Below are positions 5,101-64,000 of a stretch of 64,000 nt of DNA, one piece after another. The stretch is taken from NCBI GenBank assembly GCA_030272155.1, contig CP126203.1, positions 434,001 through 498,000 on the forward strand, in the 5' to 3' direction. The position numbers and the translations under genes were made by a program. Below the pieces are notes generated by a model. It was given only the letters and a program-made list of their open reading frames with translations. It searched no databases and was not told the DNA's origin. The stretch comes from Tetradesmus obliquus (taxonomy: Eukaryota > Chlorophyta > Chlorophyceae > Sphaeropleales > Scenedesmaceae). Within the stretch, counting starts at the first letter, position 1. Every line of letters begins with the position of its first letter.

Positions 5101-7253
5101 CAACCAACAAAGCAAACAAGCAGTTGCACGCACCTGGCCCGCGGATGCGTGCTGCCAGGTTGGCCTCGGGGGGCGCCTCGCAGCCCACAAACACCGTGGC
5201 GGGCACTGACAGTGATGCTCTACACCACAGCAAGCAGCAGACGGGCCCTGCCTACCACACGCAGCTGCGTACATTGCGCAGCACTGCACAAAACCTGCAT
5301 GCATCCAACCCCACAACTACAATGCAACACAGCATGATGAACGATACTTGACCCAGAAACATTAGTGGTAATTGCACGCACCTGGCCCGCGGATGCGCGC
5401 TGCCAGGTTGGCCTCAGGGGGCGCCTCAAAGCCCACAAACACCGTGCAGTGGTTGGGCGCGTTGCTCACAGCCGCCGGCCGCCACGTAGCCGCATTCGCA
5501 GCCGCCGCAGCTGCCGCCGCAGCCGCCGCCATGTGCGCCTGCATCGGATCGGCCCCGGGTGGTGGGCCCCAGCCGCCGCCGGGCGCGCCAGGCGGCGGCT
5601 GGCCGGCGGCTGGAGCAGCACCCTGCTGCGGCGGCTGGCCACCGAGCATGCCTGGTGGGGGTGGGCCTGAGCCGTAGGGGGCCTGCCCGGGGTGTGGTGC
5701 TGCGCCGTGCGGGCCTTGCTGCTGCTGCTGCATGACCAGGGTGCCTGGCGGCAGCAGCTTGGAGACAGGCACGCCGGACATGACTGCCCGGATGTCCAGG
5801 CAGGCGGCGTCTACTGCGGCCCGCTTGGCATCGTCAGTCTGCAGAGTGGGCGTTACGGAGGAAGTGAAACGTGAAATGTTAGTTGAGGCCAGCTCACACG
5901 TACGGACCCACAAGGACGTTATTGATTCAAGCGAGAGAGACGCATGCGGCAGGATGACTTGCACTGCCTGGCGGTGACAGCACTCGGTGACATAGTGCAG
6001 ACGAACAGATCGTCCGCACGATGACACCGCGTGCTGTCACTACAGGGCAGAGCAAAGCATCCGCAGCAGGCGTCCCTCTTAAGCGTATACCAGAACTGGC
6101 GTGCATGTTCTGTACGCATGAGCTGTATGAACAAAATACATCATTTGCCGACCACTTCAACCGCTCACATGCAAAACTGCGACCTCTCTGTCAACAAACA
6201 AACAGCAGACATTTAAACCCATCACAGCACCTTCAAACTCTCAATCTTTCAACACGCAGCCTGCCGCCCACCTGCCCCGCGTTGGCTCCAGGCGTCACCC
6301 TCAGGAACAGCGGCTTCTCCGCAGCATTGCTGCCAGCCTGCGCAGCAACAGCAGCCTCTTTGCCCTGGATGTAACGCCCACGCGTGACGATCTGCGTGTG
6401 CGTGCGCCGGCATATCTCCTCCTGCGTCTTGCGCTGAGTCAGCGCAAAACGCGCAGCGCCAGGCGCGTCGTTAATGACAACCTCGGCAAAGATGTCAGAT
6501 CCAGATCCGCGCGCGGCAGCGGCTGTGGCGGCGGCAGCAGCAGCGGCAGCTGCAGATTGCGCGGCAGCTGCCTGCTGCGCTGCTGCTGCGGCAGCGGCGT
6601 AGGGGTGGCCGGGCGGCAGCTGCTGCGGCTGACCTGGCAGGCCTGGGTGCTGAGGTGGCATCTGACCTGGCGCTGCTCCTGGGTAGTAGGGGTAAGGGTG
6701 CTGCATTGCACCTGGAGGGGCTGCATGGGCCCCAGGGTAAGGAGCAGCAGCAGCAGCAGGTGCTGCGCCTGGCTGGGTTTGCAGTGCCTGCGCAACAGCG
6801 TTAGCTGCGCTGGCCCTAGCGAGGGCTGCTGCTTGAGCTGCTGCTGCCGGGTTGCCCTGTGTGGAGCAAGGGGGTGGCCAGAAAGCAGGTCAGCAGCGCA
6901 GCAGAAGGAAATGCAGACCCCCCTGAGCTGCATGTATGACCCTGAAACTCAGAAGATCGCGTTGCTGCTGCAGAGCGCGTCACGTGACGCTGTGATTAAA
7001 ACAGATGACCATGTGCAAGCAAGCTTGCGTGGAAAATGTTCGCAGGCATGATCAGGACACTTGGTTGGCCAGGAAGCCATAAACAGCAGCGCCTACTCAC
7101 TGCAGTCAGCTTCTGCGCTGCGGCAATAGCCGCAGCTTGCGCCTGAGCTAGCAGATCAGGCGGAAGACCTCCAGCTGCGGGGATCAAGCTGGCCGCTTGC
7201 CCTGGGGCAGCAGCTGCGGGCTGGTCCCATTTTCGCTTGCGTTTGTCGTTCAT
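2112..7253 (-). CDS. KHDC4: KH-domain RNA-binding protein, KHDC4/RIK-like
   Basis: Five exons, minus strand: 7101-7253, 6272-6856, 5382-5838, 2779-4859 and 2112-2513. All junctions keep phase and give about 1,225 residues. The start MNDKRKRKWDQP is typical of the family. KH1 spans roughly residues 172-265 (EVVINDAP, then TRGRY). KH2 spans about 375-450 and carries the GxxG-type loop IRGPGDAYLSHI across the exon 3/4 junction. A very long poly-Q/P/A region follows, then a conserved KKRRFKE motif. Family members (animal KHDC4/BLOM7, plant RIK) bind RNA and associate with splicing, so a nuclear RNA-processing role is expected. The C-terminus is the weak point: after exon 5's PPPPRF tract the frame reads Cys-rich sequence to a stop, and a further intron (possible donor near 2308) may exist. 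The 3' edge of exon 3 is echoed downstream at about 5125-5205. Confidence 0.82.
5125..5205 (-). repeat. Echo of KH-gene exon 3 3' edge, with donor
   Basis: This intronic stretch repeats the last ~70 bp of exon 3 (5382-5450) and its GTGCGT donor with a few substitutions. It lies downstream of the parent exon in transcript orientation and has no acceptor of its own. Confidence 0.85.
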
Positions 7254-7515
7254 GGTGTGTCGGCTGAACAAAACCAAGAAGGAGCATGAACCCCTGACGC
7301 GATTCTTCAAGTTCGATCGCCTATTTGGCAGGCCGTGACCGGGGTCTGAGGTGCAGTGTCATGTTGTTGGTGGTGCAGCAGCCCTTCCTCGACGTCCATT
7401 CAAGCAGCCTCCTGTTTCATTCGTTCTGCACAGCACGGTTTGCTTGGTTTCATCAGGAGGCTGTTGGCTCGAGTACCTAGATGCGTGCGTGAGATTGTGT
7501 TCTGCTGTCTGTGAG
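7254..7515. promoter_or_regulatory. Divergent promoter region, KH gene / zinc-finger gene
   Basis: About 260 bp separate the two divergent start codons (7253 minus, 7516 plus), so both promoters and 5' leaders must fit here. No TATA box is evident. An in-frame open stretch upstream of 7516 could extend the zinc-finger protein if an upstream non-ATG start or hidden exon is used. Confidence 0.5.
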
Positions 7516-10978: not shown

Positions 10979-10983
10979 TGTAA
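10979..10983 (+). terminator. Candidate poly(A) signal TGTAA (zinc-finger gene)
   Basis: This is the TGTAA I noted downstream of the zinc-finger stop, giving a long 3' UTR of about 850 bp. It is a chance-prone pentamer, so the call is tentative. Confidence 0.35.
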
Positions 10984-14514: not shown

Positions 14515-17500
14515 ATGCAGCTCACCATAGCAGCGTGGGATGACCGCGTGTTTCCAGTTGAGCTGGATGCCAACGAGCCTTTTGCAACGCTTATGGCTAT
14601 CCTGGAAGCCGAGTCAGGGCTTCCTGCAGCCCAGCAGCAGCTGCTGCACAACGGGCGCCCTGTGCCTCCTTCGGCACACGGCCAGGGCTTGACTGCGCTC
14701 GGCATTGCAGATGGGGACATGCTGATGCTGATGCCGCTGCAGCAGCAGGGCGGCGCAGCAGGCCAAGGCCAGCAGCAGCGCGGGGGTGCAGGTGTGTGTC
14801 CAATCGTTTATGCAGTAGCAGGTATGCCCGTGCTATGTGCACCAGGCACTTCTGTGACAGTTTGCTTGCCTTGATTGCAACAATACAACTTAGCTGATTG
14901 CCTGTGTCAAGGACGTCAACCAGCCACCATGCGCCTTGATACTCGACTCTTATCAATGTTATTGCTGAAGCCCGCTGACCTGCCACGCTCGCCTGTCACG
15001 CTGACATGTCACAATTAACTGTTAATCACACCAGGCCAGCAGCAGCAGCAGCCGGCGCACGACCCCATGATGGACCTGAACGAGGATGGCAGCGCAAAGG
15101 CGCCTGTTGCTTTCATCGAAGCCGTGCGCGCCAAGCCTGACATCTTGGCGGCCATCCAGCACGGCAACCCGCCACTGGCCGCAGCCATCCGCAACGAGGA
15201 CATCCCCGCAGTGCAGGTGGGACATAGTGAAGAAGTTGTTTCTTTTCTGGGTAGTAGGTTGTGTCAGGGTTGTGTTGTCCTGGGTTCTGCGTGGTTAGTA
15301 AGGTGTTGCTGTGCCCTTGGCAGCAGCAGCAGCAGCACTGGATGAGCTAAAAGTCATTAGCTGGACAAGGTGGGTTGTTGCTTGTCGCCAAGCCAAACAT
15401 CACGTCGGCCATCCAGCAGGGCAACCCGCCGCTGGCCGCAGCCATCCGCAACGAGGACATCCCCGCAATGCAGGTGCGTCCTATGGCAGGACTTGTTTGA
15501 ACCTGCGGTTCTGGGTTCTGCGCGGCTGGTGGCCGGCTTCCTGCCTGCGCAGCAGCAGCGGGTAAGCAAGGCCCCTTTGCAGGAGAAGTAAGGGGAAGTC
15601 TGCGTGCGAGGCGGAGCTGCTGTCAGCCACCCCTGTTTTTGTGCAAGCATCTCCCTTGTACACCCTTGCAGGACTTGTACGGCAGCACGGCAAGTGCAAG
15701 GCTGCCAATCCGAGTGCGCAGGGCACGGTAACACACTGCACAGAACTGACTTCTGCTCATCACCTTGTCACCATGTCCCTGCAGGCGGAGCTGAAGCGCG
15801 TGCGCGCACTGCAGCGTGAGCAGCAGGCTGCTGCTGCGCGTGAGGCTGAGCTGCTGTCCGCAGACCCCTTTGACCCTGAGACGCAGCGCAAGATTGAGGA
15901 GCTGATCCAGAAGCAGAACATTGAGGAGAACCTGGCCGCGGTGAGTCTGCAAATGTGTACAGGGTGTTGCTCTTCGTTTTCACTGCACACGATTGCCTCT
16001 GCGCCTTACTTCTTTTGCACTTTGGCCCCAGTGTAGGCCCCAGCCTCCAGGAAGCTTGTTTTGCTACCACAGCTACCACAGCTACCTCAGCATCAACACA
16101 TCACTTTGCACCTTTTCCAGCGTACCTGATTATACTGCCATGCCCCTGCACCTTCCTGCCTCCTGCTTGTGTTGTTGTTGGCTGTGGGCAACAGGCGCTG
16201 GAGCACAACCCTGAAGTGTTTGGCAGCGTGGAGATGCTGTACGTGGACATGGAGGTGCGCAGGCCCAATTGCTGGCAGCAGCAGCAGCAGCTGTCGCATT
16301 TGTGGCAGCACCACATGAGCACTTGATACACCTTTGCCGCCAGGTGCAGAAATTGCCCGTCTGCCACATCTGCTGCGGCTTTTGCCTCTGTTGGTGTGGC
16401 GGCCTTTCCCATCCTAAAAACCGCCTATGGTTTTGCATGTTTGATCAGAGTGGCACACTGCATTAAGCTTGGCTCCAACAAACGCACTGCTGCAGGTGAA
16501 CGGCGTGCCTGTGAAGGCCTTTGTGGACAGCGGCGCGCAGATGACCATCATGACGCACGAGTTTGCGGCCAAGTGCTACCTCACGCGGCTGCTGGACAAG
16601 CGCTTTGCAGGCATGGCTGTGGGTGTGGGCAGCAGCAGGATCCTGGGCCGCATCCACCAGGCGCCTTTGAAGGTGCGGCTGCAGCATGGTGTATTGCTTG
16701 CAGGAATGGTGTCATTATAGAAAGTGCCTGGTAGGGTGGTTTGTAGTTGGCCGGCGCAGCAGCAGGATCCTGGGCCGCATCCACCAGGCACGCCTCAAGG
16801 TGCGGCTGCAGCAGCATGCTATAATGCTTGCAGGGGATGTGTCATTGTAGGAAGTGCCTGGTAGGGTGGTTTGTTGTTGGCCGGGGCAGCAGCAGGATAC
16901 TGGGCCGCATCCACCAAGCGCCTTTGAAGGTGCGGCTGCGGCAGCATGCTGTTTGGCAGCAGCTTCAACAAACAGCTGATCCTGTGCATGGCACTGGGCA
17001 TCTTTAAGCCATCCTGCTGCTGACAAGCTTCGCCCTCTGCTTCTGCTTCTGCTCGTCCAACACGCACTCACACTCACACACCACATCACGCACACTTTGA
17101 TTCTCCAACTTTCACCTGTACGTTGCCGCTCACCTCACCACCTGCGGCATCACGGTGCTGGAGCAGCGCGATGGGCCTCAAGTCACCTTGTGCTCACACA
17201 CAGATACTGCGCTCACCCACACCCGCGTAGCCGGACACTGCTTGTTCAACACGCACTCCTATACATCCTTGCCACATGTTTGCCGACTCGCAGGTTGCCG
17301 GGCACTTCACCACCTGCAGCATCACTGTGCTGGAGCAGCGTGACGGGCCGCAGTTCATTTTTGGGCTGGACATGCTCAAGCGGCACCAGTGCGTGCTTGA
17401 CCTGGCGCAGAGTGAGTGTCGACACATTGCTGAGCAGGACTGTTGAGGCTTTGCTGGGTGGTTTTTGTGCAGTTCATGTTGGGCTGGACATGCTCAAGCG

Positions 17501-18031
17501 GCACCAGTGCGTGCTGAACCTGGCGCAGAGTGAGCGCCCCTGTGATGAGAAACACAGACACATTGCCGAGCAGGGTGGGATGCATGTATTGGGGCTTGTG
17601 TCCGTGGTGTTCGTGTTGCACCATTGCGTGCTGAACCTGACGCAGAGTGAGTGTTGACAGACACGGTGTTGAGCAGGGTTGTTGAGGGTTTTCCTCTGGT
17701 TTCGGGCGATCGATCTTTAGGCTGGACATGCTGAAGCGGCATCAGTGGGTGCTGCACCTGGCGCAGAGTGAGTGGGCAGCCACATCACAGTCCGAGCGGG
17801 GCGGGATGCATGCTGTTGTGTTCCTTTGTGTCAGTGTGCGCTAAACGTGGCGCAGAGTGAGTGGGCAGCACCGGCAGTCCAGGAGTCTGAGCACCAGGCA
17901 TGACCCACTTTAGCAGCTTGCAACAGTGGAACTGCTGCTTCTCAAACTGGCCTAACTATTGCTGCTGCTGCTGCAGGCGAGCTGCGCTTTGGCAGTTGTG
18001 ACGCCACGCTGGGCTTCCTGCACTGACTCAA

Positions 18032-18080
<49 letters not shown>

Positions 18081-19090
18081 AGGCGAGCTGCGCTTTGGCA
18101 GCTGTGACGCCACGCTGGGCTTCCTGCCGGAGCACCTCATCCCCAAGGACTTCAAGCGCCACATCGAGGAGGTGTGTGCATTTTTGTTAGCATACAGAGT
18201 GTGTCTGCATTTGAGGCTTGCAGTGCGCCGTAGATGTGCTGGGGCATTGTGTGAAGTGACTGGTGAGCACCTCATCCCCAAGGACTTCAAGCGCCACATC
18301 GAGGAGGTGGGCGTGTGTGGCGCTGTGTTTTGGGGGGGGGGGTAGAAGGGGCGGGGTCGTTATAATAATTTGTTTTGATGCCTGTGCAATGCCTGTGCAT
18401 TGGATGTGTTGTGACTTGTGGTATCGAGTGCGTGGGGCAGCCGCGGCCTGTTCTGAGTGCCTGCACATGTTTGTGTTTTGTTGTGGCGTGTGTTTCGCAT
18501 GCGGCTGGTTGGTGGCAGGTAGTTTGCTTGGCTTTGATCACACAGGGCAAGCGGTCCTCCTCAAGTAGCAGGTGCTGCTTGTGCGCAGCAAACTGGCAGT
18601 AGTTTGTATGAATATTGCTTTCACCATATTGCCTTTGCTGCGCTGCGTTGTGCTGCCGCAGGTCTCCAAGCAGCAGGCAGAGAAGAACGTTGCAGAGAAG
18701 GATGCAGACCCAGCTGCAGCAGCAGCAGCAGCACAGCCTGCAGCAGGATCTGGCAATGCAGGCGCATCTTCTGCTGCTGCAACTGCTGGCGGCAATGGCA
18801 GCGACAATGGCCCTGCACCAATGGATGCGACCCCCTCAGGCGCTGCTGCTCCTTCAGGTGCAGCTGCTGCAGGGGCCGGGGCGGCTGCTGGTGCAGCAGC
18901 AGCTGGCGCAGGCAGCGGCCAGCAGCAGCAGCAGCAGTCAAGTGATGCGTCAGCAGCTGGGCCGGCAGTGAATGAGGCAGCTGTCACGCAGCTGGTGGGT
19001 TTAGGGTTTACGCGGGAGATGGCTGTGGGGGCGCTGCGGGCAATGAATGGGGATGTGGATGCGGCAGCATCCATGCTGTTCGGCATGTGA
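14515..19090 (+). CDS. DDI1: DDI1-type ubiquitin-receptor aspartyl protease
   Basis: Eight exons: 14515-14791, 15035-15216, 15785-15940, 16195-16254, 16496-16672, 17294-17411, 18083-18171 and 18662-19090. All are in phase and give about 495 residues. The N-terminal ubiquitin-like domain (residues 1-75) begins MQLTIAAWDD. A helical linker includes PFDPETQRKIEELIQ. The retroviral-like aspartyl protease follows with the active-site motif DSGAQMTIM in exon 5 and FGLDMLKRHQ in exon 6. A C-terminal UBA domain (LVGLGFTREMAVGALRA...AASMLF) ends the protein. DDI1 proteins shuttle ubiquitinated clients to the proteasome and cleave heavily ubiquitinated substrates, in cytosol and nucleus. A poly-A/Q/G linker of about 80 residues before the UBA is lineage-specific. 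Introns 2 and 5-7 contain about ten partial echoes of exons 2, 5, 6 and 7. Confidence 0.94.
15388..15480 (+). repeat. Echo of DDI1 exon 2 3' edge, with donor
   Basis: About 85 bp repeat the end of exon 2 (from the 'aagcctgacatc' region to GCAG/GTGCGT) with several substitutions. It lies in intron 2, downstream of the parent, without a usable acceptor at its left edge. Confidence 0.9.
16745..16945 (+). repeat. Two echoes of DDI1 exon 5 3' edge
   Basis: Copies at about 16752-16812 and 16884-16945 repeat the last ~45 bp of exon 5 (agcagcaggatcctgg onward), the GTGCGG donor and ~15 bp of intron. Spacing is about 130 bp. The second copy is closer to the parent at its exon end than the first. Confidence 0.92.
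17107..17190 (+). repeat. Echo of DDI1 exon 6 5' edge, acceptor lost
   Basis: Upstream of exon 6, about 70 bp repeat its start (gttgcc...ttcaccacctg, then gtgctggagcagcg). The base triplet at the acceptor is TAC rather than CAG, so this copy cannot be spliced in as the parent is. Confidence 0.88.
17462..17870 (+). repeat. Four echoes of DDI1 exon 6 3' edge, with donors
   Basis: Copies near 17462-17535, 17608-17655, 17715-17778 and 17830-17866 repeat the end of exon 6 (gctggacatgctcaagcgg ... gcgcagagtgag). The parent is at 17360-17420. They shorten and diverge with distance and keep the GTGAG donor. Confidence 0.92.
17970..18082 (+). repeat. Echo of DDI1 exon 7 5' edge plus (CTG)n expansion
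   Basis: A (CTG)nCAG acceptor followed by ~40 bp of exon 7 start occurs at about 17975-18025, just before the true exon. An uninterrupted CTG run (18034-18082) leads directly into the genuine acceptor at 18082. Confidence 0.9.
18262..18310 (+). repeat. Echo of DDI1 exon 7 3' edge, with donor
   Basis: The last ~43 bp of exon 7 (agcacctcatccccaagg ... gaggag) and the donor are repeated about 138 bp downstream of the parent, essentially unchanged. Confidence 0.92.
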
Positions 19091-23894: not shown

Positions 23895-23947
<53 letters not shown>

Positions 23948-39248: not shown

Positions 39249-39280
<32 letters not shown>

Positions 39281-46856: not shown

Positions 46857-47712
46857 ATGATGCACACTACGGACCCCAGCGGGCCTCGAGCAGCAGCGGC
46901 CCCAACGCTTGCTCAGCTGGGCGTAGGCAAGCCGCAGGGCACTGCTTTGATAGGCGCGGAGGGATCTGAGTTTGTTGCTGGGCTGCTGCGCACCAAGGGT
47001 CCCAACCAGGCTGTACAGGAACTGCATGCCAACTATGGCTTGCAGCACCCTCTGTGCAGGCCCCTGCTGCACATGCTGGACTATCTAGATATCAGCAGGC
47101 GCGATGCGCACGTTTACTTGCTAAACCGCGCTCGCAAGCTGCTGCTGGACTGGGTTAGCAGCACACATGCCTCCACGCAGCAGCAGCGTGGTGCTGAGCA
47201 GCAGCAGGGTGATGCCCCGGAGTCTAGGGAAGAAATCGAGCTGCAGGAAAAGCTGGAGCGCCTGCTGAATGCTAGCTTTAAGTACATGGGCGTGAGGGAG
47301 CTGCAACAGGTGATTTATAAAAGCAGCGTCGACAAGCGTGCAGCAGCAGATGCAATGGTTGCGTTATATGGGGCGCTGTCTGCACGCCAGATTTTTGATG
47401 CAAGTGGTGGTGCGGGATGATTTCTCAAGCTACACACATTCTCATACGTGTTGCCTTGCAGCCGCCGGCATGTGCTGCATTGCCTGTGCCAAGCCATTGC
47501 CACTGTGACAGCAGCGCAGTTGGCAGTTGCTTCCTGCACGCCGCAAGCAGCTGTGCTGCAAGTTGCAAGCAGTATCATTCTTGTTGATCCAGCTGCAAGT
47601 GGACACATGCTTGATGCCTCTGCAGGTGCCCAGCGAGGTGATGAGCTGCGTCAGCCAATGCAGCGAGGTGATGAGCTGCGTCAGCCAATGCAGCTGTGCC
47701 CTTCGTTGATTT

Positions 47713-47746
<34 letters not shown>

Positions 47747-50700: not shown

Positions 50701-53700
50701 CTGCCCCGTGAGGGCCGCTGTTATGACCTGGTGTGGCTGCTGGACGCGGCGCTGGCTGGCAATTGAAAAATGCTTTTGAATTATGTCCTGCTGCTGCAGG
50801 TGCGCGAGTCGCTGCCCCGTGAGCGCCGCTGTTATGACCTGTTGTGGCTGCTGGACGCGGCGCTGGCTGGCAATTAAAAATGCTTTTGAATTATGTCCTG
50901 CTGCCGCAGGTGCGCGAGTCGCTGCCCCGTGAGGGCCGCTGCTATGACTTGGTGTGGCTGCTGGACGCTGCTCTGGCGCAGCGGCGGCTGAGCCTGCCGC
51001 ACATGCGCAAGCTTGCTGAGCTGCTGCAGGAGCACATCAAGGTGGGAAAGCAGCTGCCATTGGTTATGATATGATGCTTCAGGGGTTGTATTTGCACCTC
51101 TGTCATCATCTTGATCGGACCTTGTTACAAATGCTGGCCGAGCTGCTGCAGGAGCATGTCAAGGTGGGGCCAGGTGCATTGGTACGCTTGCAGTTACAGC
51201 TGAAATTCATGATGTAATATCCCAAGCACATTTCAGCTGGCTGGGTGCTCGCCAACGCAACGTGTGGGCTATGTGTTTATAGTCCGATTGATGTAGTGGG
51301 GATGGTCAATCATTCAAGTGCCACTGCTAAGCCCAACACTAGTATACCGCACCCCAGTAAACACAACAGCTGCTGTCCCTGTTGCTGCCCACCGCCGCCC
51401 ACTGCCGCACCCTTTTCCTGCAAGCAGCCGCCGGCTCGTTTCCTGGAAGAGGACGAGGAGCACGGCTCCGCGCGGCATCAGCACAGCGACAACTCATCAG
51501 GAGTACTGCTACCAGCAAAGCGGCCTGGCGCTGCTGCTGCTGCTGCTCGTGGCCATGCCTCATCAGCGCCGTACCGTACAGTCAGCGGCAGTGTCAAGCG
51601 GCAGCGCACATCCGGCAGCTTAGGACCGCAACAGGGCCACAACAGGGCTGCTGTGTATGATTCGGATTCTGATGACGCTGAGGAGGCGGCAGCAGCAGCA
51701 GGGGAGCAGCGGGACTATGATGGGCTTGATGCGGAGGACGCTTGTGGGGCCAATGCTGCTCACTCGCAGGACAAGTGAGCTGGTTTGTTTTCTGCAAAAG
51801 CTGGGCATTTGACGCAGGGGTGTTGGGCTGCGGGTATTGCTGGCTTGCAGTGGGCTGTGTTGATGCCTCATGAAGGTTTTGCTGCTGTTTTGAACCCATG
51901 CCGAGGGACCGGCTGTGTCCTGTTTCATCGCTATGATGGGTTGGATGCAAAAGACGCTTGTGGGGCCAACGCTGCTCACTCGCAGGACAAGTGAGCTGGT
52001 TTGTTTTCTCTAAAAAGTGGGCATTTGATGCAGGGGTGTCGTGCTGCGGGTATTGCTGACCAGCCGTGTCTGTGTTGATGTTCCAGGGTGGTTTGCTGCT
52101 GTTTCAAACCCATGCAGAGGGACCGGCTGTGTCCTGTTTCAACGCTATGATGGAATGCATGCAGAGGATGCTTGTAGGGTGAATGCTGCGCAGTCGCAGG
52201 CCAAGTAAGCTGCAGTTATGAGTTTGCGCATTACAGCATGCTCTCTTGAACCACCCCTGCTCTGTGTCCATGTACACCATCAAGTTTGAGCCTGCCGCCT
52301 GAACCCCCTATTGTTGAGCGCCAAGTCGATCACGTGTCTGACACAATCGTTATGGTGCTTGTCATCAAAGCAGTGTTGCGGCTTTCTTGTGCTCTGCTCC
52401 TGCTGCCGCTGTTCTGCGCGCCAGGTGGCTGGCTGAGGCCGGCATAGTGCTATGCATTTCAGTGACATCATGCTTGTGCCTCACATTGGTGACGTTGCCA
52501 ATGACTCTGTAACATGTGCTGGTGTTGCCTGCTATACCTGCTGCTGCTGTTGCCAGGTGGCTGGCTGAGGCCGGCATGGTGCTGCGAGACCCTCCTGCCA
52601 TGCACATGCTGGCTGCCGAAGTAGCTGACACGCTGCACAGGTGCGCGCAAGATGTTTCAGCAACATGTGTTACATGTGAGTACTTGCATGTGCAATGTCT
52701 GGCCTCGAGCCACCCCCTGCCATGCACATGCTGGCTGCTGAAGTGACTGACACTGCACAGGTGCGAGGCTGGTGTTGCACATACTGCTGTGCTTCATGCA
52801 TGCATGAATGCACCAGCAGTTGCTGTTGGTAGGGTACCATACCACAGACGTGGCAGCTGCGCAAGCTGCTCGTCATTTTGCTGCCTTCATCCTCTCCCAG
52901 CCTGCGCCTGCGCCACCACACGACAAATGCACCCCACTACACCCCTTCTTTAAACACAACTGCTTTGCCTCGTCCCCTCTGAACCTTTGTCAAGCATACC
53001 ACACTCTGTTTTGGTGTTGCTGCAACCGTCAAATTATACAGGTGCATGCTGCAGCGGCAGCTGCCGTGCAACGTGCCGCAGCTGTCGTGGCTGCTGCGGC
53101 TGATGCAGCTGGGCGTGGCAGCGCGCAACAGCCTGAGAGAGTCGCGCTTTGTCACGCCACCACACCCGGCGCGGGACCTGCACGGGGTGAGCGGTGCTGG
53201 AGAGCATGCTGTGTTGACAGCAGTGTGCAACGCTCGCCTGCTTGGGGGAGCTGATAACAATGCCGCAGCATGCACAGTACTGCTTGCTGTGTGCTATTAA
53301 TTACAGCACACAAAGCTTTGAAAAAGACTGCTCTCAGCTGGTAGCGTCACTGCGTCGGGGAGTCAGGCCACGTCGCACCGCCACACCCCTGCTGCTGCTG
53401 CTGCTGCAGGTGTGGGCTGAGCTGCTGGTGCTGCTTGCTGAAGGTGAAATGGAGGCACAGCCCTGGGAGCAAGAGCGGCAGCGGCCACACCGCGCAGCAG
53501 CGCTGGGCAATGACGGGCAGCAGCAGCAGCAGCAGCGTGGCTGGCAGCTGCTGGTGAATGAGTACCGGCGGCAGGAGGTGGTGCGGCGGGTGGTGCAGGT
53601 GGGCAACGCTGCGGTATCATGCAACCTGCGAGCAATCCCAGTCAATAGGCTTCGCTGCTGGAAACCTCGCGATGACACATGCATGCAAATTTGACAGAAA

Positions 53701-54469
53701 GGCACACATGTGCCGTGCACGCTGGAAGCCTGCAGCCTCCAGTCTGAGTTGTGTGCTGCATGCTCACCTCGCCTCATCAACGTTTTGATTCCTCCCCTGC
53801 TTGCTGCTGCTGCAGGCGCTGCTGCTGGACCGCTTGGCTAATGCTGACCTACTCACGGCCCGCAGCCTGCTGCAGCTGCTGCTGGACAGCAAGCATCTGG
53901 CCAGCCCCGCTGCTGTGCCAGAGTATGCCCCATTCGCATACAGCCTGGCCTCTCTGCTGCAGGAGCTGGTCAAGAGCAGGGGCCTGTCTGCTCGCAGTGC
54001 CTTTTGGGGGGCTGCGGTGGGTGAGGTGCTGCTGGCGCTGGTGGACGCGGACAGCCAGGTGGGCGGCAGGACAGTTTTGTTGCAACTACTTATTTTGTTA
54101 CATGAAGGCAGTATAACATGGTGCAGCACTGCCTGGTCAAGAGCAGGGGCCTGTCTGCTCGCAGTGCCTTTTTGGGGGTGGCGGTGGGTGAGGTGCTGCT
54201 GGCACTGGTGGACGCAGACAGCCAGGTGCGACTGCGGCGTATCATTTAATACCAGGTTGTAACTGTTACGTAAAGGTGATGTTACATTTGTACATCATGG
54301 CCTGCGCAAGAGCAGGGGGCTGGCTGCACGCAGTGCCCTTTTGGGGGGTGGCGGTGGGGGAGGTGCTGCTGGCTTTCATATGCAGTGCCTGCAGTTGGGA
54401 GCTGGATCAAGGATTTACTGGCAGTTGGCAGGCGAGTTGCCAAGCGGTGTGCGGTGGTGCAGCGCTGAC

Positions 54470-54503
<34 letters not shown>

Positions 54504-57025
54504 AGGTGCACATTGAGGTGCTGCGTCTTCTGCTGGGCGTGTGCAAGGAGCTGCCGCCTGCCACGCTGGCACGCTACCTTGGGCACATGCTGGCAGCAAC
54601 AGCTGCCAGCCGTGCTCGAGCCAGCAGCCAGAAGAAAAAGTTTGCCAGCATCAGCAGCGCGGCCGCTAGCCACGCTGCATTTGCGCACCACGGTGTGCCT
54701 GGCTATATCGCAGGTGGGGTTGGCTGGTTTGCCTCGATTTGTTTGTACGTTATCTTTTGTTTCTTGATACGCTTGTCACCAGCTGCCCATTGGACGTTTT
54801 CCTTCAGCATAGTGTTCAGTGATGTGTATAACACTATGCTGGCAGCCACGGCTGCTAGCCGCGCGTGAGCCAGCAGCCAGAAGAAAGAGTTTGCCAGCAT
54901 CAGCAGCGCAGCCGCCAGCCACGCTGCATTTGCGCACCATGGCGTGCTGGGCTACATTGCAGGTAGGGGTGGCTGGTTCGCCTCAAATTGTTTGTTCGCG
55001 TTCTTTATTCCTGTTGAGCTTGCCACCAGCTGCCCAATGGACCATGTCCTTCAGCAAACTTGTCAATCGTGTGTATGTATGGCAGTATGCTGGCCGCCAT
55101 GGCTGCTAGCGCGAGCAAGCAGCCAGAAGAAGAAGTTTGCCAGCATCAGCAGCGCGGCTGCTAGCCATTCTGCGTTTGCGCACCACGGCGTGCCAGGCTA
55201 CATTGCAGGCCTAAGGGGAGTGCTCGCGGCACTTTGTGGTTGCAGCGTTTGCCAGTCAGCTGCCGTTGCGTTCAACAACGCTGTGTAACATTTGCCTGCT
55301 AAATCAGGCATCCTTCACAGCATCAGCAATGGCTGCTAGCCACGCCGCGTTCGCACACCACGGCGTGCCGGGCCACATCGCAGGTATGGGTGGCTGGTTT
55401 GCCTCATTTTGTTGGTACATCTTATCTTGTTTTCTTGTTGAGCTCGTCACCAGCCGTTCAACGGGCAGTGTCCTCCAGCAAGCTTTCCAGTCATGTGTAT
55501 GTATGGCAGTATGCTGGCAGCCGGGCAAGGGCAAGCAGTCAGAAGACGAAGTTTGCCAGCAACGCAGCGCTGCAGCCAGCCATGCTGCATTTGCGCACCA
55601 CGGCGTGCCGGGCTACATTGCAGGTGGGGGTTATGGCAAGTGGCGTCCCGCTGATGGATCCGCAGGTGGCGCAGCGAGCGATTGGAGCGTTTGTTGTCGT
55701 ATGGTGCGCCTCAAGTACGGCGGCAACAGCAATGGCTCGTGCCATGTGTCCTGCTAATGGGTCCGCAGGTGGCGCAGCCAGCGAGTGGAGCGACGGCTGT
55801 TGGGCGGTGTCTAGCCTCAAGTACAGCAACAGCAGTGACGGCTATGCAATTAACCAGTATCCTTTTCTTTTTAATGTCCGCACGAGGTGCAGCCAGCGAG
55901 TGGAGCGACGGCTTCCGGACTGTTCGCAGCCTCAAGTACGGCGGCAGCAGTGACGGCTGCACCTGTCAACTCACAGAATGTGTTATTAAACGCGTGTTGT
56001 GTCTGCAGGCGGGGCAGCGAGCGAGTGGAGCGACGGCTTTCGGACGGTGCGCAGCCTCAAGTACGGCGGAAGCAGTGACGGCTACAGTGAGCTGTACCGC
56101 AAGCTAGTAGTGGTTGGGGGGCTGAGTGACAAACAAGAGCTGTGGCCGGCTGAGCTGAAGCAGTACATGCAGGTGGGGAGGCAGTACATGTGGGTGGGCG
56201 GGCAGTACATGTGTTTGTGGGTGGGGTTGGGTGTTGGGCAGTACGTTCGTGAGCTGTATCCAAGCTGGTGGTGGTGGATGGGCTGAGTGACAAGCAGGAG
56301 CTGTGGCCCCAAGAGCTGAAGCAGTACATGCAGGTGGGGGCAGGCAGTTCACATGTGCAATGCGCAGTTACGCATCCACCTTAGTCATCAGGACTCGGGG
56401 GATGTCTAACTTCTTTCTTATACATGTGTTTGTGGGTGGGGACGGGGTGGCATCAGGCAGTAGCATGCACGAGCAATGAAGCAATACATGCTATATGCAA
56501 ACTCTCTGTGAACATGCAGGCGGGGCCAGGAGGTACATGCGGGTGGGGACGAGCAGTACATGGCCGGGGTGGGTTCGTGTCTGGCAGAACGTGCAGGTGT
56601 GGTGGCCAATAGCCTGCACCTAACCTGTTTGGGCCCTCGCCTCTTTGCACTGCGCGGAGGTGCTTCCGCAGCAGTGCAGCAGACAGATGCTGCTGCTTGC
56701 CATACTGCTTGAATGAGTACTGTGTGCCGCAAGCAACCATGGTGCACTGTGCATGCTGTGCTTGTGCCTGCATAAATGCTGCTGCTGCAGGAGCTTGAGA
56801 GGCCGCTGCAGCAGGAGGAGGCTGCGCGGCATGCTGCGTGCTGCTGCCTGATGGAAACAAGCCGTTATCAGTACTTTGATGCTGCTGTGTGCTGCCGTAC
56901 GGCACATGCGTGTGCTGCTGCAGGAGCTTGAGGAGCGCCGGCAGCAGGAGGAGGCTGCACGGCATGCACAGCAGCAGGCGGCCCGCGACGACGAGCAGCA
57001 GGCAGGCGATGGCGACCTGTTCTAG
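46857..57025 (+). CDS. NELFB: NELF-B/COBRA1-like negative elongation factor subunit
   Basis: Fourteen exons: 46857-47309, 47886-47996, 48614-49052, 49253-49401, 50197-50367, 50910-51041, 51428-51774, 52557-52640, 53042-53186, 53410-53598, 53816-54058, 54506-54713, 56009-56172 and 56924-57025. All are in phase and give about 978 residues. Co-linear similarity to animal NELF-B/COBRA1 includes LHMLDYLDISRRDAH (exon 1), VPIEVMSCMSHVPAPYLKQL (exon 2), RRTVRSGSEAIKQLREMVG (exon 4), YCALRTQLLMALHDCS (exon 5) and VLRDPPAMHMLA (exon 8). NELF-B is the helical scaffold of the complex that helps pause RNA polymerase II in the nucleus. Additions here are Q/S-rich inserts in exon 3 and a Ser/Asp-rich exon 7 with a KRQR basic patch. 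The exon 1 and exon 4 donors (GTGATT, GTGCCT) are weak. About 29 exon echoes fill the introns. The assignment rests on remembered family motifs, not a search. Confidence 0.78.
47618..47830 (+). repeat. Two echoes of NELF-B exon 2 5' edge, with acceptors
   Basis: Copy one (from 47627) has an internal 27-bp tandem duplication of 'gcgaggtgatgagctgcgtc'. Copy two (from 47758) runs ~60 bp to 'accaagcagctg'. Both follow CAG acceptors; a (CTG)n run precedes the second. The true exon starts at 47886. Confidence 0.93.
48055..48412 (+). repeat. Three echoes of NELF-B exon 2 3' edge
   Basis: Copies near 48062-48125, 48181-48260 and 48338-48402 repeat 'gtggctggctgaggac...ggtcttcaatgagctgcc'. The second and third keep CCGCAG/GTG. 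Each is preceded by 'aagggcca', so a shared unit was amplified. Confidence 0.9.
48485..48545 (+). repeat. Echo of NELF-B exon 3 5' edge, with acceptor
   Basis: GTGCAG then ~45 bp matching exon 3 start (tacgagtacga...ctgctgcagcaggatg) occurs 124 bp before the true exon at 48614. There is no donor. Confidence 0.92.
49555..50196 (+). repeat. Tandem array: five echoes of NELF-B exon 5 5' edge
   Basis: Exon starts recur at 49569, 49692, 49819, 49945 and 50071, with the true one at 50197. Periods are 123, 127, 126, 126 and 126 bp. Each unit has ~85 bp of exon start plus ~40 bp of intron including 'tatgtaacacccctgcacct' and its GCAG acceptor. Copies at 49569 and 49945 carry in-frame TGA after the serine-tyrosine codons. 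All break off around 'gcagctgctgatg'. Confidence 0.97.
50680..50909 (+). repeat. Tandem array: two echoes of NELF-B exon 6 5' edge
   Basis: Exon starts recur at 50689 and 50800 with the true one at 50910 (periods 111 and 110 bp). About 73 exon bases and the intervening 'aaaaatgcttttgaattatg' are nearly identical between copies. Neither echo has a donor. Confidence 0.96.
51125..51175 (+). repeat. Echo of NELF-B exon 6 3' edge, with donor
   Basis: The last ~33 bp of exon 6 (gagctgctgcaggagca...caag) and GTGGG donor recur 120 bp downstream. Confidence 0.88.
51925..52215 (+). repeat. Two echoes of NELF-B exon 7 3' edge, with donors
   Basis: Copies at about 51930-51985 and 52143-52212 repeat 'tatgatgggcttgatgcgga ... 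cactcgcaggacaa' and the GTGAGC/GTAAGC donor. Intron words (gggaccggctgtgtcctgtt) are shared between the units. Confidence 0.92.
52415..52450 (+). repeat. Echo of NELF-B exon 8 5' edge, with acceptor
   Basis: GCCAG plus ~24 bp of exon 8 start (gtggctggctgaggccggca) lies 134 bp before the parent at 52557. Confidence 0.88.
52700..52768 (+). repeat. Echo of NELF-B exon 8 3' edge, with donor
   Basis: The end of exon 8 (cctgccatgcacatgctggc ... ctgcacag) and GTGCG donor recur 120 bp downstream with a 2-bp deletion. Confidence 0.9.
54128..54385 (+). repeat. Two echoes of NELF-B exon 11 3' edge
   Basis: Copies at 54133-54230 and 54306-54380 repeat 'aagagcaggggcctgtctgc ... gtgaggtgctgctggc'. The nearer keeps AGCCAG/GTGCG. 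The farther loses the last ~25 bp and its donor. Confidence 0.92.
54828..55630 (+). repeat. Four echoes of NELF-B exon 12 3' edge, with donors
   Basis: Donor junctions recur at about 54961, 55208, 55382 and 55624 (parent 54713), with spacings of 248, 247, 174 and 242 bp. Units include the 'agcagccagaagaa' to 'gcgcaccacggcgtgc' stretch and a shared intron part (ggctggtttgcctc...gtcaccagctgcccaatgg). The first copy has TGA where the parent encodes Arg-Ala. Confidence 0.95.
55650..56008 (+). repeat. Tandem array: three echoes of NELF-B exon 13 5' edge
   Basis: Copies start near 55664, 55769 and 55888, before the true exon at 56009 (period about 105-121 bp). Each repeats 'gcagccagcgagtggagcga ... 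ctcaagtacggcgg'. Two have CGCAG acceptors and the third reads CGAG. Confidence 0.94.
56180..56345 (+). repeat. Echo of NELF-B exon 13 3' edge plus short tandem words
   Basis: At 56248-56340 the end of exon 13 (gggctgagtgacaagcagg ... cagtacatgcag) and GTGGGG donor recur. Between parent and echo, and again at 56525-56565, the words 'gcagtacatg' and 'gtgggcgggcag' are repeated several times. Confidence 0.9.
56782..56850 (+). repeat. Echo of NELF-B exon 14 5' edge, with acceptor
   Basis: (CTG)nCAG followed by ~48 bp matching exon 14 start (gagcttgagaggccgctg ... gcgcggcatgc) lies 134 bp before the parent. Confidence 0.92.
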
Positions 57026-57414: not shown

Positions 57415-57462
57415 CAGTCGAAGTCCAACATCATCCTGACGCAACCTTTTGACTTGATTGTG

Positions 57463-57467
57463 TTACA
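57463..57467 (-). terminator. Candidate poly(A) signal TGTAA (FdC1)
   Basis: TTACA on plus reads TGTAA on minus, about 640 bp past the FdC1 stop and 50 bp from the opposing NELF-B signal. Confidence 0.45.

Positions 57468-58072: not shown

Positions 58073-58104
<32 letters not shown>
58073..58104. repeat. (CTG)n microsatellite next to the FdC1 stop
   Basis: The run abuts the FdC1 stop codon on its 3' side. On the minus strand it reads CAG repeats in the 3' UTR. Confidence 0.9.
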
Positions 58105-58106
<2 letters not shown>

Positions 58107-59914: not shown

Positions 59915-61657
59915 CTACAGCTCCTGCTTCTTCTGCTGCTGTAGCCAGGTCTTCAGCGCTGCCACATAATCCGCCTTCTCGATGCAACCAGAGCAGTCAA
60001 CGCCCTTGGCTGCTATGAGCGCCTTGAGTTGACCCACTTTAAGTGCCTGCAAGTTTGTCGAATCGTCCAGCACCACTTGTGCTGCACATTTCTTGCCCGA
60101 TGCATACGAGCTGATGTGGCGCTGCAGAGGCTCTGATTTGACCGTGCCTGCAGAAAACACACACAGCAAACACGTGAGCAGACCGCACAAAGCTGAGGCA
60201 GTTGACTGCAGCAGCTGGTAGCCAGTCAATGGTTGACCGTCATGCTGGTCAACGGGCTGCTGACAGCTGCTGCGTTGTTGCAGTAGACATACATTGCAGC
60301 AGCACCACAACCATCGCAAGCACAGTCATCCAGCTGCTGCTTGCAGGACAACAAGTGCAGCTGCTGCTGTTCTACACCGCTCACCTGAGTAAGCCTCCGC
60401 AGTGCGCACGTCCCCGTTGCAAATCGACACCACCCTGCTGCTCTGGCCGCTGCCCAACTCCCCAGCCGCCCCTAGCTGCGCCAGCACTCCTTTCGCATCT
60501 GCTGTCACAAACCCAAACGCTGCCTTGCCCCTGTAAGCAACTGACAGCGCTTTCCACAGCGATGGCACAGTAGACTTGCTTGACACAAGCACCATGCACA
60601 AGCCCCAGGATGCTCCTGCAGCACTGCCCTGCTTCTTCCTGCTGCTAGTACCAGTCCCGCTGCTGCTGCTGCCGCACTGAGACAGAAATGAGCTCAGGTC
60701 TGACTCCTTTTTGAGCACCACAGCGTCATTTCCAATGAGGCTGGTGGCCCAGCTGCTGAGGGCTGCTGCGCTGCGGTCGCCCTGGTACTCCTGCCAGGAC
60801 TTGGAGTGAGGGGCGAGCGCCATGATTGTTGGGTAGCCGCGCACACCCTGCAGCAACACGGAACAGATGACACCATGCAGGCGACATGATCATAATGATA
60901 CAGATGTGAGTGCTTGGCAGCCCCCTGGTACTCCTGCCAGGACTTAGAGTAAGGGGCGAGCGCCATGATTGTGGGATAGCCGCGCACACCCTGCAGCAGC
61001 ACGGAACACATGACGATTTGCAGGCCATACAGGGTGAAACCGATGCCGGCAGGGAGCATTTGGCAGCAGAAGGACAGCAAGTCGAGCCATAGCTGTGGCA
61101 TGCGTGGCGGCAGGCAGCGTTGGTGAAACATTCTGGCACATGCTGCTCTTGCCGGTCCAAAGGTTAGTCATGCAACCCACACCATGACAACAGCACATCA
61201 CGCCAGCCCTGCAACGCCAGCCCTGCAATGTTAGCGAATACAAAATAGCTGCCGCTGATCTCTCACCCTTGCGCTACATATGGCCTTGTGATCATCGCAG
61301 ACTACTGCTGCCACCTTGGCCACAGCCTTGAGCGACTCAGCAGCTGCACTGCTAGCGTAGCATCCTGGCAGGTGCTGCGCGCACCACTTCAGGGACGATG
61401 GCAGTGGCTTTGCCATGCACACCACACCACAAGCAAAAACGGTACACTACACATCACACTCATCAAGCCCCCCCTACAAAGCTCACATACGTAAAGCTGT
61501 CACTGCCCTCTCACCCTTGCGCTGCAAATGGGTTTGTGGTCATCGCAGTTCACTGCAGCCACCTTTGCGACTGCCTTGAGCGACTCAGCCACCTTCTTCC
61601 ATTTGGGAGCCAGCTGCTGGCAGTGGCCGCACCAGGGCGCGTAGAACTCCACCTGAC

Positions 61658-61707
<50 letters not shown>

Positions 61708-63449
61708 AGCAGAAGCAGCAGCAGCAACAGAAGCAGAAGCAGTGGAGCTGAGCGAAAACAGGTGTGCCTGTGCTCGTGCCAGCCACTGGCAGCTCACCAA
61801 CAGCGAGGCCAAGCAGTTCATTGCATTCAACAGAGTTCCTAGACTATCTGGCAAGGCAGCCAGCCTCCTCACCAGGTGCAGCCAGCCGCTGCTGCCAGCC
61901 GTCATAATCCAGCAGTCAGACCACCACCCTGCACCTGGCCTAACACTGCATGCAACACCAATATTCAAAGACACTCAACCTTCTATAGGCAGCTGGCGCC
62001 CTCACCAGGTACAGCCAGCCGCCGCTGCCAGCCACCGGGAAGCTACCACCACCCAGCTGTAACACAGCAACGCTGCACCTTCTCCACCATTGCATGCAAC
62101 AGTACTCCAACAAAAGCCAGTGCCCTCACCAGGTACAGCCAGCCGCTGCTGCCAGGCGCCAGGAAGCTGTCAGCAACCAGCTATGACCCAACACGTGTTG
62201 ACCCCTGCAACTGCTCCAACAATGTACGCAACAGCAGTCTGCACAGGCAGCCAGCGCTCACCAGGTACAGCCACCGGGAAACTACCACAACCCAGCTGTA
62301 ACACAGCAACACTGCATCTGATTGTGCATTCGCAAGCCTATGTTAAATCCACCAGAGCCCCAGCACTCACCAGGTACAGCCAGCCGCTGCTGCCAGTCGC
62401 GGGAAAGCTGTCAGCATCCAGCTGCAGCACAGCGGGTGCGTCATCGTACAGCCCACCAGGCCCGCCAGCAATCCCCCCGTGCTGCTGCTGCTGCTGCCGC
62501 GGGTGCCCACCCAAGCCACCCACGCCACCAGGCAAGCGGCCACCTACCATTGCAACCGCATACACACTGCATAATTGTGCATTCACCAGCTTCATCATAA
62601 TGCACCAAAAGCCCCAGCACTCACCAGGTACAGCCAGCCGCTGCTGCCAGCCGCCGGGAAGCTGTTGCCATCCAGCTGCAGCACAGCGGGTGAGTCATCA
62701 TACAGCCCACCAGGCCCGCCAGCACTGCCGCCATGGTGCTGCTGCTGCTGCCGCGGGTGCCCGCCCATACCGCCAGGGAAACCACCACCCATACCGCCAA
62801 ACTGAAATCCGCCGCCGCCACCTACACACAGCAGTACAACACAGAAGTGGTGAAAGGCAAGCAATCTCTGATATCAACTGGGTGACGCTTGCAGGATGGA
62901 GGTGCGTGTGGGGCAGGCACACTTGCAGGCAGTTAGATGCAGGCATTGCGGCAAACATCCTGCATAACGCTGCTGCTTGATTTGTAGTACCAACTCCTGC
63001 AGAGGTGCTGCTGCACAGGCATACCAACTGCTGCTGCTGCTGCTCACCTCCTTTCTGGAACTGGAACTGCTGCCTGCCACCACCGCCACCTCCGCCACCT
63101 CCACCAAAGAACATGTTGAACATCTCAAAGGGGTCACCCTGCAGCAGCAGCAGCAGCAGCACAATCATGCAGACTGCAGGACTACGCTGTGTACTGAGGT
63201 ATGGCGCAGCTGCAAAAGCCCACCAGCAGAAGGAGGCACAAGTGGGAGCAAAAGGTAATGCGCAACAACTGCGATACACGCCTCGATCCTGTGCAGCCCG
63301 ACTGCTGTACAGGTGCTGCTGCAGCTGATCCGCTCATCTGCTGTCACCGCTGTTGCAGGTACGCTGCACCTATATGCGCTGTGAGTGCTGCATGTGCATG
63401 CGCAAAAGCATTCGCTTTTGCTGCAGCTGCTGCGGCCGCGAAATCCGCC

Positions 63450-63483
<34 letters not shown>

Positions 63484-64000
63484 ACATGGAACTGGAAGCC
63501 GCCTCCCCCTGGGCCACCAGGGCCCCCAGGGCCTCCCTGCTTCAGGCCCTCCTCACCAAACTGCACGGTACGGAACAGCATGCGGAGTGACGCAAAAGAA
63601 AACAGCAAACAGAGCAGCACAGCTTGCACTAGCATGCACACCACAAAGCAGAGCTACTATGCATCCCACCAACTGGCTGGCTGGCAGGCCGGCAGGTATT
63701 GAGCGCCGCTCTGCTCTGGTTGTACATGCGCTTGATGACACTGCTTCTGCTGTTGTTGAGTGCTCACTATAAATACAGACCCACCTGGCCGTACATGCGC
63801 CGCTTTTCAGGGTCTGACAGTGTCTCATATGCAGCAATGCTTTTGCATCTGACTCCTGCAGGACCACTGCTTTTCTGTTGCATCAAGACCCACCTGGTCG
63901 TACATGCGCCGCTTCTCAGGGTCAGACAGCGTCTCATACGCAGCAGCAACCTCCTTGAAGCGGTCTTCTGCCTTCTTCTTGTCGCCCGTGTGCCTATCAG
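59915..64000 (-). CDS. ER J-domain / thioredoxin / SAP-like protein, 5' end off the edge
   Basis: Seven exons on minus, incomplete at the right edge: 63894-64000, 63486-63560, 63048-63138, 62625-62821, 61515-61652, 60385-60847 and 59915-60147. All are in phase, about 434 residues in view. Order of domains: the end of a J domain (D R of HPD at the edge, then [22 protein letters not shown]), which stimulates Hsp70; a Gly/Phe-rich region ([14 protein letters not shown]); a thioredoxin domain with [11 protein letters not shown] and cis-proline in GYPTI; a second, CxxC-less thioredoxin-like stretch; and a C-terminal SAP-like segment ([20 protein letters not shown]) resembling the MANF/CDNF C-domain. 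The end is KQEL, a KDEL-type ER retention signal. It probably links BiP chaperoning with disulfide chemistry in the ER lumen. Plant TMS1/ERdj3A is the nearest concept I know. The signal peptide lies outside the window. Confidence 0.9.
60920..60998 (-). repeat. Echo of J/Trx-gene exon 6 5' edge, with acceptor
   Basis: Upstream of the sixth exon in view (starting 60847, minus) ~68 bp repeat its start and CTGCAG acceptor almost exactly (cgcggctatcccacaatcat...). The copy diverges after 'taccaggg'. Confidence 0.94.
61258..61375 (-). repeat. Echo of J/Trx-gene thioredoxin exon 3' edge, with donor
   Basis: About 85 bp repeat the end of the exon at 61515-61652 (gccttgagcgactcagc ... tctcacccttgcgct as read on plus) and keep the GTGAGA donor. 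It does not include the CGHC codons. Confidence 0.93.
61658..61702 (-). repeat. (CAG)n / minus-strand (CTG)n before thioredoxin exon
   Basis: On the minus strand this pure CTG run directly precedes the CGTCAG acceptor of the thioredoxin exon, acting as its pyrimidine tract. Further imperfect CAG/AAG repeats continue to 61745. Confidence 0.9.
61860..62560 (-). repeat. Array: five echoes of J/Trx-gene exon 4 3' edge, with donors
   Basis: On plus, the donor-proximal word 'ctcaccaggtacagcca' recurs at about 62368, 62258, 62128, 62003 and 61868 (parent 62621). The nearest copy covers ~180 bp of the exon; the others 30-50 bp. Related intron words (acacagcaacgctgca, caacagt) are shared. Confidence 0.93.
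63451..63482 (-). repeat. (CTG)n run after the second J/Trx exon in view
   Basis: The run begins 4 bp inside the intron donor of the exon at 63486-63560. On minus it reads GTGAG followed by CAG repeats. Confidence 0.88.
63775..63840 (-). repeat. Echo of J-domain exon 3' edge, with donor
   Basis: About 55 bp repeat the J-domain exon end (ctggccgtacatgcgccgct ... tctcatatgcagca on plus) with GTGGGT donor, 110 bp downstream of the parent. The codon before the donor-proximal Gln reads Gly instead of Asp. Confidence 0.93.

Follow-up and report, generated by a model that had tools for sequence, protein, structure and literature searches.

Genes in the window and their exon models

The window analysed here is the 64,000-nucleotide stretch from position 434,001 to 498,000 of contig CP126203.1 of the green alga Tetradesmus obliquus (assembly GCA_030272155.1), part of the 104.7 Mb in 17 contigs that was searched as the genome, and its multi-exon genes carry in their introns partial copies of the adjacent exon edges, which we call echoes of the parent exon. 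Four genes, ERO1, ACLB, NELFB and DDI1, were modelled best; they comprise 42 introns, with a mean length of 463 bp, and 83 exon edges. Exon models of ACLB, ERO1 and NELFB were obtained by spliced alignment to the records P0001 (617 of 618 residues identical), P0121 (435 of 437) and P0241, which is listed as negative elongation factor B of T. obliquus (matching at 970 of 977 residues aligned). As the ACLB and ERO1 genes span several kb and the source contigs of P0001 and P0121 are no longer than 2.0-2.6 kb, these two records are taken to be spliced transcripts. The exons of the DDI1-like gene were joined by hand into an open frame and its Pfam domains checked, and in the four-gene models the gene ends and one exon were adjusted by eye.

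A second set was formed by genes predicted with a hidden Markov model (HMM), 37 of them in four other 50-kb loci (C1-C4) and one on the minus strand of the window (58-63.6 kb). A per-base HMM trained by iteration was dropped, since it drifted to labelling echoes as exons. The length-aware HMM was better, yet it chose wrong parents in both arrays that we read, and for this reason the window statistics rest on the protein-guided and hand-made models while the HMM serves the second set only.

Echoes at exon edges

In the four genes we observed 57 echoes reaching an exon edge, 28 five-prime and 29 three-prime, at 32 of the 83 edges (Table 1). They remained from 69 rows of a finer search after exclusion of 12 in which the alignment stopped over 20 bp before the edge; 8 of these 12 were one masked stretch listed repeatedly, an artefact. 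The initial annotation of this DNA had counted about 75 echoes in seven genes, copying 20-180 bp of exon; we find the 57 in four genes, six more in the minus-strand gene at 58-63.6 kb and the pair at 5124/5372, and the aligned exon parts in the four genes measure 24-107 bp, within the proposed range but well short of its upper end.

Each edge was compared with its two adjacent introns, the cut-off being the 99.9th percentile of 3,327 scores of edges against other introns. On the right side 27 of 83 tests passed (14 of 41 for 5' edges and the upstream intron, 13 of 42 for 3' edges and the downstream intron), against 6 of 76 on the wrong side (4 of 38 and 2 of 38), and all six of the latter came from four exons of 77-118 bp, in which the two 90-bp test windows overlap. 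The rule put forward earlier, that 5' echoes lie upstream and 3' echoes downstream of the parent exon, thus holds in the four genes. None of the 57 covers 95% or more of its parent exon, and whole-exon tandem duplication, with acceptor and donor both copied, is therefore not seen among them.

The second set yielded 67 edge-reaching rows, of which 11 were rejected as an aligner artefact (identity below 0.78) because they lay in masked stretches where N had matched N. The 56 echoes kept lie at 44 edges in 14 of the 38 HMM genes, that is, the one window gene and others in the four loci (C1 27, C2 6, C3 10, C4 7, window 6). Five of these 56 rows cover at least 95% of the modelled parent exon; three of the five, belonging to one array in C1 and one in C4, were read by eye, and in both arrays the HMM parent was the wrong copy. 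In the C4 array (L028 7765-8252, or 47765-48252 of the joined C4 sample) two copies of 62 bp each have, by eye, a well-placed AG together with a donor and are candidate cassette exons. The earlier statement that no echo has both splice sites is thus borne out by the 57 but may not extend to these two copies.

Local hits (less than 1 kb apart) in the window were 89 direct and 4 inverted, the coding repeat gene at 38.7-44.7 kb being excluded, whereas a single shuffling of the complete window yielded 0 direct and 0 inverted. Local direct repeats were found in five of five loci, with 1.53 direct hits per kb in the window and 0.74, 0.20, 0.28 and 0.30 in the four others. The habit that had been called genome-wide does recur in all four other loci sampled, although 2-8 times sparser there. 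Collapsed or stuttered repeats in the assembly have nothing in their favour beyond the repetitive structure itself; parent and echo in the window differ by 0-21%, the repeats recur in every locus and the differences follow the reading frame (see below), which makes such an artefact hardly credible.

Table 1. Modelled genes and echoes in the window. D, copy distance in bp.
Feature	Position	Strand	Basis
DDI1-like gene (ubiquitin-like, aspartyl protease, UBA), 8 exons	14515..19090	+	hand-spliced frame, Pfam
ERO1 gene, 8 exons modelled, 5' end provisional	22192..26529	+	spliced alignment to P0121
ACLB (ATP-citrate lyase beta) gene, 16 exons	27868..35826	+	spliced alignment to P0001
NELFB gene, 14 exons	46857..57022	+	spliced alignment to P0241
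DDI1 exon 2 3' echo, D 257	15386..15473	+	
DDI1 exon 5 3' echoes (16756-16789, 16884-16929), D 127, 257	16756..16929	+	
DDI1 exon 6 5' echo, AG lost, D 172	17122..17180	+	
DDI1 exon 6 3' echoes (17469-17529, 17618-17646, 17713-17767)	17469..17767	+	
DDI1 exon 7 5' echo, D 106	17977..18021	+	
DDI1 exon 7 3' echo, 100% over 42 bp, D 135	18265..18306	+	
ERO1 exon 3 5' echo, D 109	23065..23099	+	
ERO1 exon 3 3' echo, D 127	23395..23470	+	
ERO1 exon 4 5' echo, D 149	23811..23869	+	
ERO1 exon 5 5' echo, D 130	24349..24401	+	
ERO1 exon 5 3' echo, D 161	24794..24860	+	
ERO1 exon 7 5' echo, D 221	25402..25483	+	
ERO1 exon 7 3' echoes (25883-25910, 25975-26001, 26055-26104)	25883..26104	+	
ACLB exon 5 5' echo array, three copies, unit 136 bp	29457..29793	+	
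ACLB exon 7 3' echo array, four copies, first unit 122 bp	31202..31612	+	
ACLB exon 9 5' echo array, two copies, unit 107 bp	32017..32177	+	
ACLB exon 13 5' echo, AG lost	33795..33818	+	
ACLB exon 14 3' echo, D 180	34846..34869	+	
ACLB exon 15 5' echoes (35028-35079, 35137-35192)	35028..35192	+	
NELFB exon 2 5' echoes (47626-47657, 47757-47816)	47626..47816	+	
NELFB exon 2 3' echoes (48073-48114 GT lost, 48192-48246, 48348-48399)	48073..48399	+	
NELFB exon 3 5' echo, D 123	48491..48536	+	
NELFB exon 5 5' echo array, four copies, unit ~126 bp	49692..50150	+	
NELFB exon 6 5' echo array, two copies, unit 110 bp	50689..50856	+	
NELFB exon 6 3' echo, D 122	51133..51163	+	
NELFB exon 7 3' echoes (51931-51990, 52145-52204)	51931..52204	+	
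NELFB exon 8 5' echo, D 132	52425..52451	+	
NELFB exon 11 3' echo, D 167; further edge-less piece 54307-54365	54133..54225	+	
NELFB exon 12 3' echo array, four copies, one GT lost	54836..55603	+	
NELFB exon 13 5' echo array, three copies, one AG lost	55668..55961	+	
NELFB exon 13 3' echo, D 161	56249..56333	+	
NELFB exon 14 5' echo, D 133	56791..56850	+	
5' echo, thioredoxin-domain gene (other copy 60780-60882), D 143	60923..61025	-	HMM exon model only
Multi-copy repeat region of thioredoxin-domain gene	61854..62767	-	HMM exon model only
Probable 3' echo, KH-domain gene (other copy 5372-5446), D 248	5124..5198	-	HMM exon model only

The thioredoxin-domain gene is adjoined on the minus strand by 2Fe-2S ferredoxin exons (58047-59281), and the gene finder fused both.

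A unit of about 122 bp and its share of intron length

The distances between copies form a ladder at about 122, 244 and 366 bp. Among exact 14-mer matches over 264 kb, with the coding repeat gene masked and echo-echo matches included, so that the counts are not independent, 161 fell at 100-169 bp, 73 at 210-259 bp and 17 at 350-379 bp, as against 20 at 40-99 bp, 10 at 170-209 bp and 0.24 per 10-bp bin at 620-1200 bp; a separate short-distance class held 33 matches at 10-39 bp. The nearest single-unit distance was 132 bp in the window (standard deviation (sd) 21, 28 edges) and 126 bp in the second set (sd 17, 39 edges), the mean unit consisting of 51-54 bp of exon and 75-78 bp of intron. Taken with the direct orientation of the local hits, this ladder shows copies that are direct, nearby and unit-spaced, as in local tandem duplication. 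Furthermore, 26 of 32 adjacent spacer pairs inside the arrays were more similar than the 95th percentile of 400 unrelated pairs, and 21 of 32 exceeded their maximum. The head-to-tail duplication of exon-intron junctions suggested by the initial annotation is supported by these results.

Two other repeats may be mentioned here. A 215-bp tandem duplication in C2 (L018 7636-8073, or 47636-48073 of the joined C2 sample), 99.5% identical over 219 bp, is apparently very recent and of a different size class. The coding repeat gene (38812-44622, minus strand) has one exon, and its product of about 1,936 residues is built from repeats of about 43 residues, with a 129-bp unit, near the 122-bp step, and a higher order of 387 bp.

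When the farthest echo distance is taken as the DNA inserted at each edge, echo units account for 8,052 of the 19,449 intron bp (41%) of the four genes; if they were removed, the mean intron length would drop to 271 bp. The 24 of 42 introns with at least one echo average 572 bp and the echo-free introns 318 bp. Mean introns given in the accessible part of PMC5966456 are 462 bp for T. obliquus, 230 for Raphidocelis, 302 for Monoraphidium, 284 for Chromochloris and 270 for Chlamydomonas, and the mean without echoes resembles the values of these relatives. The pattern of echoes is real, present in all five sampled loci, quantised and quantitatively important.

Four units from three genes were searched genome-wide, very common words being skipped, and each matched its own gene only, which is not the dispersed family that introners form; the NELFB and ACLB proteins likewise matched the genome at their own loci only. 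Introner-like or transposable insertions with exon-like ends would agree with the spacers that lack a clear homologue just outside an array, but with four of four units confined to their own gene we regard them as a very improbable source of the echoes.

Splice sites in the echoes

The AG or GT is retained in 52 of the 57 four-gene echoes (acceptors 25 of 28, donors 27 of 29) and in 98 of the 113 echoes of both sets, where 101 would be expected from the rate of change at 0-fold sites. The dinucleotides show no sign of selection either way, and the decoy function once suggested for them finds no support in these numbers. For sites with the dinucleotide intact, the acceptors of echoes score 6.9 and those of the parents 6.5, and the donors of echoes 5.8 and those of the parents 5.9, a similarity that is partly circular because the matrices were trained on HMM calls, some of them echoes themselves. 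The ACLB and ERO1 records skip all 22 of their own echoes (13 and 9); all 57 echoes are intronic and none is present in the three aligned proteins (ACLB, ERO1 and NELFB), DDI1 being hand-spliced. Duplicate splice sites close to the true ones are apparently ignored, as judged from these records.

In the 5' echoes of ERO1 exon 3 and of NELFB exons 2, 3, 5, 6 and 8 a GT directly follows the AG, which would in principle allow these acceptors to be used in recursive splicing. Many CTG/CAG triplet runs are found throughout the window, in several introns directly upstream of the acceptor.

Proposed tandem duplication across exon-intron junctions

We consider the echoes to be best explained, with a probability of roughly 60%, by recurrent tandem duplication of about 122 bp across exon-intron junctions followed by recombination in the exon parts, an explanation that covers neither the size of the unit nor the synonymous excess described below. 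According to it, this alga would undergo, as a recurrent mutation, short direct tandem duplications within genes. Where a unit covers one junction, the copy joined to the remaining exon would continue as the exon and the other would be left behind in the neighbouring intron, carrying one splice site only. Arrays would then grow in unit-sized steps through unequal exchange, with the exon-derived block, conserved by the parent exon, serving as homologous anchor while the outer intron flanks drift apart. We infer the unequal exchange, the anchoring by exon blocks and the lack of a function of the echoes themselves.

Since only the copy attached to the rest of the exon stays an exon, 5' echoes come to lie upstream and 3' echoes downstream, and any tandem duplication of one junction yields this rule geometrically. 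In a simulation that placed units of the observed sizes at random in the four genes, one-sided detectable copies arose at 0.267 and whole-exon copies at 0.018, about 15-fold less; whole-exon copies should make up 6.4% of the visible ones, or 2.0 among 32 edges, and 0 were observed (P(0)=0.12). The selective filter against whole-exon copies that had been invoked earlier is therefore not required. The initial annotation did not describe the stepwise unit size, the fraction of intron length taken up by echoes, the bias towards synonymous differences or the diverged outer intron flanks.

Introners and introner-like elements also give rise to many intronic copies in an alga. The echoes differ from them in being undispersed (for the units tested), in resembling each its own exon and in that no new introns were seen. 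In the accessible part of PMC4974935, introners stand among the models listed, and a potato RdRp case is described in which the copy creates a new intron and inserted exon sequence; here the copies lie within an existing intron, leave the protein unchanged, number 57 in four genes and fall mostly in one size class. Internal gene duplication (Gao and Lynch 2009, as cited there) likewise takes place inside genes, and that part of the citing text does not describe one-sided exon-edge copies left in introns. Breaks with complementary overhangs can give rise to small tandem duplications through fill-in and end-joining (PMC8355091), and these too are head-to-tail, local and direct; their size is set by the priming site within the overhang, and the passages available of that paper give no reason for a narrow size of about 122 bp or for exon-anchored arrays. 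A literature search, mostly without subscription papers, returned no title or opening of an abstract on one-sided exon-edge copies in introns, and the words intron, exon and tandem are absent from the part of PMC7590803 available. Each event is of a known kind, a tandem duplication across a junction; the density, the one-sidedness, the fixed step and the likely exon-anchored renewal set the present case apart.

Unit boundaries, flanks and proposed exon anchoring

Several observations, both in the form of the units and in their substitutions, weigh against junction-spanning duplication. Among 67 single-unit cases only one has an intron part shorter than 43 bp, and the breakpoints are not uniform (Kolmogorov-Smirnov p = 3e-13), although at 5' echoes short intron parts may be scarce because an acceptor needs upstream signals. 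An exact tandem duplication should copy the flank, and yet the intron flank exceeds the 95th percentile of unrelated flanks in only 26 of 113 echoes. In the 29 echoes whose exon part is at least 95% identical, the intron side averages 0.72 identity, against 0.575 for unrelated flanks and about 0.9 expected by simulation at their 4-fold divergence of 8.7%. The outermost copy of young arrays lacks a clear homologue of the spacer, and single high-identity matches typically span only 0.5-0.65 of a unit, the duplication at C2 47,636 being the one exact case.

Exon-free DNA is also avoided. Of 86 repeat families in all loci, 75 reach an exon edge, 7 lie within introns only and 4 were classed as intergenic, while the same spans placed randomly would touch an edge in 51.9 families (sd 4.4); for young families the figures are 23 of 24 and 14.9 (sd 2.4). 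Among simulated random units 53% are wholly intronic, which is above the 7 of 86 intron-only families observed. Random duplication does not predict this excess at edges unless exon-free copies decay or vanish faster. Duplication targeted to junctions was considered and is not claimed, because the signal, strong against a unit-based null, was weaker against the fairer span-based one and because exon copies are easier to recognise. The excess may reflect preservation rather than targeting, exonic copies being easily recognised and possibly renewed by exchange with the exon.

Substitution pattern and ageing of the echoes

The remaining difficulty lies in the substitutions. Parent and echo differ at 5.4% of 0-fold and 21.7% of 4-fold sites, a corrected ratio of 4.54 (bootstrap 95% confidence interval (CI) 3.4-5.9), whereas reasoning suggests no more than about 2 for a copy that drifts freely next to a parent under constraint, and 220 differences were counted at 1,032 four-fold sites where base-specific rates predict 113. 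Two scripts gave slightly different window counts (98/2041 and 117/506 versus 108/2047 and 120/507), because echoes were realigned, with the same bias. The excess is present at single-echo edges also (3.85, CI 2.7-5.5), so that exchange within arrays alone was ruled out as its cause. Translation as the main cause was ruled out as well, for the 19 frame-broken echoes of both sets share the bias (ratio 5.2; 2.5 in the six of the second set alone). As both single-echo edges and frame-broken echoes keep it, most of the excess must have accumulated while the sequence was coding and not through present translation, and simple neutral decay is an incomplete account of how echoes age. Two readings fit the ageing data, namely allelic recombination in a very diverse population, and exchange with the parent that purges amino-acid changes.

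The second of these belongs to a wider alternative, in which the echoes are themselves selected, either because they are translated in alternative isoforms or because their changes reach the parent by gene conversion and amino-acid changes are purged. The synonymous bias, which is seen between echoes too (0-fold 108/1,283 and 4-fold 94/316, pairwise and not independent), would agree with this, as would an intact reading frame in 43 of the 57 window echoes with an in-frame stop in only one. On the other hand, frameshifting indels occur in 13 of the 57, the frame-broken echoes are equally biased, the ACLB and ERO1 records omit their own echoes, and echo spacing shows no bias towards multiples of 3 (35, 38, 40). 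Within arrays, moreover, changes private to one echo (0-fold 45/419, 4-fold 21/105) are nearer neutral than shared or parent-specific ones (2/419 and 15/105). Selection on the echoes is on this evidence unlikely, though its gene-conversion form is compatible with the junction-duplication explanation.

Alternatively, the excess may be old allelic variation, young echoes and their parents deriving from different alleles that were joined by recombination inside exons, which presumes a population with very high silent diversity and is again compatible with junction-spanning duplication. The sharing of the bias by frame-broken echoes is in its favour, as are the 7 of 977 residues that set the window apart from the NELFB record named T. 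obliquus. Of 13 array pairs whose spacers are young (less than 12% different), 10 have an exon block more diverged than the spacer, as expected if blocks carry older variation. A young array in C1 (L010 9320-9909, or 19320-19909 of the joined sample) consists of five exon blocks with four identical 48-bp spacers between them, and most of the differences among the blocks are synonymous; three of its spacer pairs differ at 0 of 56 positions each and the exon blocks at 1, 5 and 2 of 62, identical spacers thus standing beside variable blocks. However, a silent diversity of roughly 6-14%, estimated from the 0- and 4-fold data, would be required, and we regard old alleles as a possible source that is nonetheless on the improbable side.

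Implications for intron evolution

The recurrent duplication of junctions may also be part of a self-renewing, exon-anchored regime, in which machinery that advances in fixed steps of about 122 bp would copy junctions all over the genome, the conserved parent exon would go on re-seeding and multiplying its echoes by recombination, and echoes with changed amino acids would be purged because recombination can return them to the gene; we offer this as a tentative and rather doubtful extension. If it is true, introns would lengthen at exon edges by quantised steps. The echoes also provide a natural experiment on splice-site choice and, as fossil copies of the parent exon inside the gene, a means of dating intragenic duplication and recombination. 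In T. obliquus they offer a concrete, countable cause of intron lengthening, with echo units taking up 41% of the intron sequence of the four best-modelled genes.

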